Positions 19,753 through 22,191 of a DNA stretch of 64,000 nucleotides are shown piece by piece. The stretch is from Acidimicrobiia bacterium (GTDB lineage Bacteria; Actinomycetota; Acidimicrobiia; Acidimicrobiales; Poriferisodalaceae): the NCBI GenBank assembly GCA_022826045.1, contig JAJDVQ010000102.1, forward strand, positions 1-64,000, read 5' to 3'. Below the pieces are notes generated by a model. The model ran no database searches and was not told where the DNA came from. It saw nothing but the letters and a program-made list of their open reading frames with translations. A program made the position numbers and the translations under genes. Position 1 is the stretch's first letter. Every line of letters begins with the position of its first letter.

Positions 19753-21009
19753 CTAACTCTTCGCCCTCTGGGCGAAGCCGAACAGCTTGCCGGCGACTTT
19801 GCGGATCTGGATCTCCTCTGAGCCCTCGGTGATCCGGTACCGGCGGTGGTGCCGGTAGATGTGCTCGAAGGGCATGTGGCGGCCGTAGCCGTTGCCGCCG
19901 CAGCTCTGCATGGCCCGGTCGGCGGCGTCGCAGCAGAACCGGTTGCCCCGGTAGTTGCACATGGCCACCTTGTCGGTGATCTCCATGTGATCGACGCCCT
20001 CGTCCATCTCCCAGGCGGTCTTCCAGATGAGCGCCCGCACCATCTCGGCCTCGGTGTACAGCTCCGCCAGCGGGAACTGGATGGCCTGGTTCTGCGCCAG
20101 GGGCTTGCCGAAGGTGGTGCGGTTCTTCACATAGTCGACCGCCACATCGATGCAGTGCAGGCCGGCGCCGACCGATGACGCGGCCTGGCGGATGCGGTTC
20201 TCGTGCACGAAGAGCTGCGCTGTCTGCAGGCCCCGGCCTTCGTCACCCAGGATGTCGTCGTTGCTCACTCGCACGTCGGTGAGCCGCACGTGGGCGTGGT
20301 CGGTGGGCATGTTGAAGGTCCACATGAACTTCTCGACTGCGAAGCCGGGCGTGTCGACCGGCACGATGAAGCAGGTGATGCCGTGCCCTTCGCCGGGGTT
20401 CCCCGAGGTGCGGGCGAAGATGTAGTCGTGGGTGGCGTGGTGGAGCCCGGTGTTCCAGTACTTCTCGCCGTTGATCACCCACTCGTCGCCGTCGCGCACG
20501 GCGGTGGTCTCCATCCAGGTGGCGTCGGAGCCGTGCAGCGGCTCGGTGAGGCCGAAGCCGATGCGGGCCTGGCCCTCCAGCATCTTGGGGATCCAGTACT
20601 CCTGCTGGGCCGCTGAGCCGTAGCGCTCCATCATCAGCACGGTCGGGAAGTTGCCGATGATCGAGTTCTCGTTCTGCAGGTCGTTGTGCAGTCCGAGGCC
20701 ACGGCGGGCGAGGTGCTCGCGGATGATGGCCATCCCCAGGTTGGTGCCGTCGCTGCCGCCGAAGCGCTCGGGCAGGTGCCAGCGCAGGAAGCCCGCCTTG
20801 TCGGCTTCCTTGCGCATGCGGACCAGCAGGGCTTCCCATTCCGCGTTGGGCAAGCCCTCGCGTTCCCAGTCGGTGCGCGAATCCTCTCGCCGGTGGTCGA
20901 AGAAGCGGATGTTGTCGTCTTCGTTCTCGATGGGCTTGATGACGTCGTCGATGAACGTGTCCAGGTCGTCGAGCAGCTGGGCGATGTCGTCCGGGATGGT
21001 GAAGTCCAT
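19753..21009 (-). CDS. acyl-CoA dehydrogenase family protein
   Basis: The 418-residue flavoenzyme shows the N-terminal helical domain, the FAD-contact segment FGLTEPLHGSDATW, the middle-domain INGEKYWNTG, and a C-terminal YRITEGSEEIQIRKVAG where family members usually carry the substrate-clamp and FAD contacts. It oxidises an acyl-CoA at the alpha-beta position. ATG 21009 begins the conserved MDFTIPDDI; the frame stays open further upstream but that sequence is antisense to the selenoprotein gene and is not conserved. It is divergent from that gene. Substrate chain length cannot be told. Confidence 0.88.
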   Translation of the reverse strand: MDFTIPDDIAQLLDDLDTFIDDVIKPIENEDDNIRFFDHRREDSRTDWEREGLPNAEWEALLVRMRKEADKAGFLRWHLPERFGGSDGTNLGMAIIREHLARRGLGLHNDLQNENSIIGNFPTVLMMERYGSAAQQEYWIPKMLEGQARIGFGLTEPLHGSDATWMETTAVRDGDEWVINGEKYWNTGLHHATHDYIFARTSGNPGEGHGITCFIVPVDTPGFAVEKFMWTFNMPTDHAHVRLTDVRVSNDDILGDEGRGLQTAQLFVHENRIRQAASSVGAGLHCIDVAVDYVKNRTTFGKPLAQNQAIQFPLAELYTEAEMVRALIWKTAWEMDEGVDHMEITDKVAMCNYRGNRFCCDAADRAMQSCGGNGYGRHMPFEHIYRHHRRYRITEGSEEIQIRKVAGKLFGFAQRAKS

Positions 21010-21093: not shown

Positions 21094-21705
21094 ATGACGA
21101 CTGCTGAGGCGATGTCCGTGCTGGTGTGGTCGGACTATCTGTGACCGTGGTGCCATCTGGCACGAGCCCGGGCGGTCCGCCTGGCCGAACGGCACAACCT
21201 CGACATCACGTGGCTGGCGTACGAGATCCATCCCGAAGTGCCGCCCGAGGGCGTCGAAGTGCGCATGAGCTTCGAGCGAATTGCCTCGATGGCCGAGGTT
21301 GAAGGCATCACGTTCGTGGTGCCCAAGCGCCTGCGCAACAGCGCCAAGGCGCATCAGGCTGCGCTGGCAGTCGAGCATGCCGACCCCGACGCCGCCGAGC
21401 GCTACCACGACCGGCTCTACGCCGCCTACTGGGAAGACGAGCTCGACGTCGCCGATCCTGACGTGCTGGTCAGCCTGGCGGCAGACGTGGCCATCGACCC
21501 AGACGTGCTGCGACGCGTCGTTGCCAACGACGAACTGCTGCCAGCGCTGCGGGCATCGATGACCCGGGCGAACGAGTGGGGAATCAGCGCCACGCCGAGC
21601 TGGCTGTTCGACGGTCGCCTCGTAATCCCGGGAGCGCAAGACGACGGCTTCATGGCAGACGTCATCAGTCGGCTGCGTGAGCGGCCTGCACCGCCCACCA
21701 GCTGA
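21094..21705 (+). CDS. FrnE/DsbA-like thiol oxidoreductase, probable selenoprotein (TGA = Sec17)
   Basis: Read through one in-frame TGA at 21142-21144, this gives a 203-residue DsbA-family protein of the FrnE/HCCA-isomerase-like branch. The N-terminus VLVWSDYL-U-PWCHLARARA matches the family active site SDxxCPWCxxG, with TGA exactly at the first catalytic cysteine (UPWC). The rest (residues 18-203) is open and conserved in style, including SATPSWLFDG, the cis-proline loop, and the closing LVIPGAQ. ATG 21094 has a G-rich GGGGGTGG about 5 nt upstream; ATG 21112 is an alternative (Sec11). A SECIS-like hairpin follows the TGA. The other reading is a recent Cys-to-stop mutation. No sel genes are in the window. 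Confidence 0.75.
21142..21144 (+). other. in-frame TGA, putative selenocysteine codon
   Basis: This TGA replaces the first Cys codon of the CPWC active site in the FrnE/DsbA-like gene. A single-base change from TGC or TGT would also give it, so conservation in relatives is decisive. Confidence 0.7.
21168..21184 (+). promoter_or_regulatory. bacterial SECIS-like hairpin
   Basis: CCGGGCG (21168-21174), apical loop GUC (21175-21177) and CGCCUGG (21178-21184) form a 7-bp stem with one G-U pair. The loop starts 30 nt after the TGA and has G in first position. Both agree with the bacterial SECIS rules I recall: loop 16-37 nt from UGA, and G in the first two loop bases. A second 5-bp hairpin lies closer, at 21150-21163. 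Confidence 0.55.
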
Positions 21706-21747: not shown

Positions 21748-22191
21748 CTAGCAGCCTTGCCCGCCGCCAGCATCCGGTGGCGGCACCACGGGCAGACCGT
21801 GGCTGATCCAGCCTTCGATGCCGCCGTCGAGATCGGTGGCACGCGCAAAACCCAACTCCTGCAGCTGGGCCGCCGCAAGGCTTGAGCTGTAGCCCTGGTT
21901 GCACACGATGACCAGATGGTCGTCGAGATCCGCTGCGGTTCCTTCCGAAGCGCCCGAGTCTGGGTCGAGGCGCCACTCCAGTACCAACTGCCCGATGTGC
22001 TCAGAGCCCTCGATGACGCCGGTCCGCTGCCGGTCATCTCGTGGCCGAATGTCGATGACACGCAGTGGCCGTTCGCTGTCGCCGCTCCCTGGGCCCATCA
22101 TCTCGGCAAGCTCAGCGGGAGCGACTCGCTCAAACCCCGAACGTGCCTCGTCCAGCAGTTGGTTGATCGTCTTGCGCTGAGGTTCAGACAC
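21748..22191 (-). CDS. rhodanese-domain protein
   Basis: This 147-residue single-domain rhodanese has the active-site loop IVCNQGYSSS, with the Cys that carries persulfide or phosphate. The early helix region APAELAEMMG and the strand RVIDIRPRDD fit the family. It ends GGGQGC, an extra C-terminal cysteine. GTG 22191 has GGGGAGC about 6 nt upstream. It converges on the putative selenoprotein; the 42 nt between them hold no clear terminator. A role in sulfur transfer or thiol redox is inferred. Confidence 0.85.
   Translation of the reverse strand: MSEPQRKTINQLLDEARSGFERVAPAELAEMMGPGSGDSERPLRVIDIRPRDDRQRTGVIEGSEHIGQLVLEWRLDPDSGASEGTAADLDDHLVIVCNQGYSSSLAAAQLQELGFARATDLDGGIEGWISHGLPVVPPPDAGGGQGC

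Follow-up and report, generated by a model that had tools for sequence, protein, structure and literature searches.

An active-site TGA codon, almost certainly decoded as selenocysteine, in the gene for a FrnE/DsbA-like protein of an uncultivated Acidimicrobiia bacterium

The window, a 64,000-nucleotide stretch of DNA from an Acidimicrobiia bacterium, carries a FrnE-like gene (Sec-FrnE) on the forward strand at positions 21094–21705. From its ATG start to its TGA stop (21703–21705), the gene encodes 203 residues, and its frame translates as MTTAEAMSVLVWSDYL-TGA-PWCHLARARAV..., with an in-frame TGA at 21142–21144 (forward strand). Alignment of homologues places this TGA as the proposed selenocysteine (Sec) codon, residue 17, giving the motif UPWC. 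The frame is open for 16 codons 5′ and 186 codons 3′ of the TGA, exactly as an earlier sequence-only reading of this DNA had described, and it contains no second internal stop and no frameshift. The start ATG is the same in 10 of the 10 genomes of the genus that were compared, and no signal peptide is evident in the protein. Cys20, the proposed resolving cysteine of UPWC, is encoded by a TGC at 21151–21153, and Thr167-Pro168 by positions 21592–21597, all on the forward strand. ORF calling with translation table 11 yields only 21238–21705 (155 aa) at the locus, the headless protein that the same reading had expected of standard annotation. A Pfam DSBA match (PF01323; E 2e-28) covers residues 9–190 of the read-through protein and homology is thus continuous across the TGA.

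Divergently transcribed from Sec-FrnE is an acyl-CoA dehydrogenase gene (19753–21009, reverse strand), identified from NCBIfam matches. This head-to-head neighbour adjoins 30 of 30 orthologues of the taxonomic family (L020–L049, the window gene included), and about 1.2 kb separates the two genes in one of them. The dehydrogenase, at 88–99% identity, is far more conserved than the selenoprotein, at 42–98% identity to that of the window. In other genera, most orthologues are flanked on the opposite side by a second, distant acyl-CoA dehydrogenase. Within the genus, genes for rhodanese-like, VOC and 280-aa proteins also follow Sec-FrnE. The first of these (21748–22191, reverse strand) adjoins Sec-FrnE and encodes a small rhodanese-like protein with the motif VIVCNQGYSSS; it is kept in the genus, but not in the family's other genera. 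The acyl-CoA dehydrogenase neighbour was absent beside the six distant Cys homologues that were checked (L064–L069), and beside two members (L086 and L090) of a second Sec clade described below. Its fixed position in the family hints at a role of Sec-FrnE near acyl-CoA metabolism.

The AlphaFold2 model of the read-through protein has a mean pLDDT of 92.7 and a DsbA fold, consisting of a thioredoxin fold with a helical insertion. FrnE of Deinococcus radiodurans (DR_0659; PDB 5cnw, 5co3 and 5xwh) was the best match in a sequence search of the PDB (E 2e-16) and also the first in Foldseek (26% identity, E 4e-14), in agreement with the FrnE-like identity that had been assigned from the sequence. 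It was followed in Foldseek by a Streptomyces DsbA-like protein, and then by GST kappa and 2-hydroxychromene-2-carboxylate (HCCA) isomerase. The window protein has a CxxC-type site with Sec at the first position and a later conserved proline, P168, which does not vary among 20 Sec and Cys homologues and which we take, by family precedent, to be the cis-Pro facing the active site. The combination of PF01323 with UxxC, which characterises DsbA-like selenoprotein form 1, is likewise present. A thioredoxin-fold selenoprotein model of NCBIfam, NF041057 (Rcas_1661 (seleno)lipoprotein, DsbG-like), matches just part of the protein and, at 31.5 bits, falls well below its cut-off of 190.

D. radiodurans FrnE carries CPWC at the same place as the window protein, which is shorter, has Sec for the first Cys and lacks the C-terminal CxxxxC motif, as Cys20 is its only Cys. 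The CxxxxC motif occurs in many FrnE proteins and so does not define the subfamily; it is missing in some, for which regeneration by another route has been suggested, and D. radiodurans FrnE is reported to have disulfide reductase/isomerase activity (PMC8945050). The window protein is probably cytoplasmic, since in the predicted model it starts directly at the first β-strand.

A different chemistry could be read into the structural similarity to GST kappa and HCCA isomerase, a sequence match to 3fz5 and the acyl-CoA dehydrogenase that adjoins all 30 orthologues. In that case, the protein would be a Sec enzyme resembling GST kappa or HCCA isomerase, acting on acyl-CoA or another small molecule and coupled to the neighbouring dehydrogenase. 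This is improbable, as the match to FrnE is stronger in both sequence and fold, and no Sec member has lost either U or C, which is a mark of thiol-disulfide chemistry. In GST kappa and HCCA isomerase, the first Cys is replaced by Ser, so that the pair is missing.

A homologue of Sec-FrnE is present in 37 of the 39 genomes of the taxonomic family. Each of the 30 family orthologues found has exactly one internal TGA, which lies at the first Cys position of CPWC; its retention in all of them indicates that the TGA is not a chance occurrence. Across a wider set of homologues, the codon is TGA in 49 distinct Sec homologues (the 30 family orthologues and 19 sequences of the second clade), and TGC or TGT in 35 others. 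These Cys sequences are more distant homologues, some of them from Myxococcota and from other genomes within the class. The claim of the sequence-only reading that the TGA takes the place of the first CPWC cysteine is thereby upheld, and close relatives, for which that reading had asked whether the position is Cys or TGA, have TGA in all 30 cases and lack signs of decay. The second Cys of the motif is kept as TGC or TGT in every Sec homologue. The closest named records are metagenome-assembled genomes titled Acidimicrobiia, Acidimicrobiales or Microthrixaceae bacterium. One FrnE-like homologue (L065, genome G332) has CPWS, with the second Cys lost, and in-frame TGA within its aligned stretch.

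From the TGA up to the start at 21238, the sequence evolves in the manner of a coding region. Codon differences were counted from the window sequence across ten genomes of the genus, and codons 18–48, which span this stretch and would go untranslated with a true stop at the TGA, showed 58 synonymous versus 6 nonsynonymous differences, distributed 8/2/56 over the three codon positions and thus mostly in the third. The dN/dS ratio was 0–0.06 for codons 18–48 and 0.05–0.11 for the remainder of the gene; for the first 16 codons it was 0–0.43, a noisier estimate from few codons. As there is no other stop or frameshift, and purifying selection acts on both sides of the TGA, the gene does not appear to be decaying. 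The ORF call of 21238–21705 alone is what would be expected if the TGA were a true stop in a decaying gene, leaving a headless product from the GTG at 21238 or none. However, 30 orthologues, the most divergent at 42% identity, retain both the TGA and the full frame, purifying selection on codons 18–48 is strong, and the headless protein would, in the predicted model, be without the first strand, the first helix and the active site. A true stop is therefore very improbable and was rejected on TGA conservation and codon statistics.

Decoding of the TGA as Sec would be directed by a putative bacterial SECIS hairpin, proposed at 21164–21184 (forward strand) from a hairpin rule, a consensus fold and synonymous constraint. 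The hairpin rule specified a stem of at least 4 bp, a loop of 3–9 nt with a G in its first two places, and a loop start 17–37 nt from the U of UGA. The best hairpin of the window is CCGGGCG-GUC-CGCCUGG (21168–21184), whereas most family relatives favour an overlapping register that corresponds to 21164–21178 in window coordinates. The best SECIS-like hairpin had a median energy of −9.0 kcal/mol in the 49 Sec genes versus −3.2 kcal/mol in the 35 Cys genes, and hairpins below −5 kcal/mol occurred in 88% of the Sec genes versus 17% of the Cys genes. In two sequences of the second Sec clade (L107 and L108), no hairpin was found by the simple rule.

The folding energy of the region was no better than that of shuffled sequences (z about 0 to −1.7) and was uninformative on its own; the comparison of Sec with Cys genes and the synonymous constraint were therefore used. 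Among the 30 orthologues, no other run of six successive eligible codons in the gene has a codon entropy as low as that of codons 23–29, and mean synonymous variation was 0.30 at codons 23–28 versus 0.82 outside the region (Mann–Whitney p 0.0003). The proposed hairpin thus coincides with the lowest synonymous variation in the gene. In a consensus fold of 16 sequences, one stem pair changed from G-C to A-U in 5 and was broken in 4, and it was the only pair of the shared fold to have changed on both sides. An Rfam scan of the window returned no family at the gathering threshold. A constrained RNA element lies 3′ of the TGA and is proposed to be a SECIS-like hairpin with bacterial spacing, with a predicted pairing register that varies between the window and most of its relatives.

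The sequence-only reading had named selA, selB, selD and tRNA-Sec as the machinery to look for, and all four were found in the same genome, the assembly of which comprises 3.64 Mb in 104 contigs and is 90.8% complete. selB scored 267.6 bits (cut-off 242), selA and selD gave E values of 7e-97 and 3e-105, and tRNA-Sec scored 67 bits and was called by ARAGORN as tRNA-SeC with anticodon tca. A single contig carries selA, selB and tRNA-Sec. The selD gene (L019; G000:C90:12620-13573, minus strand) has an in-frame TGA of its own in HGAG-TGA-ACKLG, so there is at least one other candidate selenoprotein in the genome. Furthermore, selA is present in 39 of the 39 family genomes and in all eight genomes outside the family with a verified Sec form (G053, G074, G113, G134, G243, G286, G309 and G315). 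A scan of the window for further in-frame TGA gave nothing beyond the termini of ordinary genes and frames that did not convince. Suppression or a code change across the lineage, with some other tRNA reading the UGA, would also explain a frame read through at a UGA, but is scarcely credible: TGA still terminates genes, this one included, the sole internal TGA sits at a Cys position, no other convincing readthrough gene emerged from the window scan, and all four Sec genes are present, so that a code change was rejected.

The 'stop' at codon 17 is thus almost certainly read as selenocysteine in the active site, as judged from comparative sequence evidence. With very high confidence, the gene is taken to encode a cytoplasmic FrnE/DsbA-fold thiol-disulfide oxidoreductase with a UPWC site, the Sec of which would derive from UGA codon 17 under direction of the hairpin. 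In the proposed mechanism, SelD would supply selenophosphate and SelA would make Sec-tRNA, and SelB with tRNA-Sec(UCA) would insert Sec at the UGA, directed by a hairpin that lies within the coding sequence about 20–40 nt downstream. Sec17 would then act as the exposed nucleophile that attacks a substrate disulfide, and Cys20 would resolve the Sec17–substrate intermediate. By analogy with D. radiodurans FrnE, which is a reductase, and because the window protein looks cytoplasmic, we infer that it may act as a reductase or isomerase and not as an oxidase.

The second Sec clade comprises 19 sequences (L095–L109, L111, L112, L086 and L090) with UPWCxVG or a similar motif, at about 30% identity. 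Its members come from other genera of the family and from further lineages of the class, and none was found in the genus of the window. Like the window gene, they are FrnE/DsbA-like, share the position of the TGA codon and have a hairpin with the spacing of a SECIS, but the hairpin loop is about 4 nt nearer the UGA. In a tree of 84 sequences, the second clade is separate from that of the window and groups with Cys proteins of Myxococcota, and Sec and Cys must have been exchanged at least twice. As the tree was a quick one with long branches, the claim made from these sequences is confined to the two Sec clades being distinct and does not extend to the number of Sec gains. More speculatively, Sec may have been gained more than once in the FrnE family of these actinobacteria, in which Cys proteins separate the two Sec clades, and the conserved two-gene unit of the window clade with acyl-CoA dehydrogenase could reflect a Sec-FrnE specialised to protect or regulate acyl-CoA oxidation; the two together are a doubtful proposition. 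We know of no selenoprotein with such a role.

Sec-FrnE is not a new kind of selenoprotein. COG2761, to which such proteins have been assigned, is the FrnE subfamily of DsbA (cd03024). DsbA-like UxxC selenoproteins assigned to COG2761 were already described in 2005, from ocean metagenome data of the Sargasso Sea (PMC1088965), and DsbA 1 and DsbA 2 selenoproteins were reported from the GOS data in 2008 (PMC2398784). DsbA-like selenoproteins were counted in 41 organisms in 2016 (PMC5029168), and 'DsbA-like protein form 1' is listed in Table 1 of a 2026 review, according to which the functions of such proteins are largely uncharacterised (PMC13188914). Form 1 (PF01323/COG2761) shares with the window protein its Pfam family, Sec for the first Cys of CxxC, a bacterial-type hairpin right after the UGA and widespread Cys homologues; the likeness to the Sargasso Sea and GOS proteins is drawn from their descriptions. 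A word search of PMC5029168 and PMC13188914 found no Acidimicrobiia host, and a literature search for FrnE with selenocysteine, or for selenoproteins of Acidimicrobiia or sponge symbionts, found nothing relevant.

None of the NCBIfam models with which NCBI names bacterial proteins scores the window protein above its cut-off, and the gene has therefore probably gone on record as a truncated DsbA-like protein, if it was annotated at all. The present analysis contributes a selenoprotein lineage of uncultivated Acidimicrobiia, which is well supported, together with a further Sec clade among related genomes and the constant head-to-head arrangement with one acyl-CoA dehydrogenase gene. That arrangement gives a starting point for testing the function of a DsbA-like selenoprotein.
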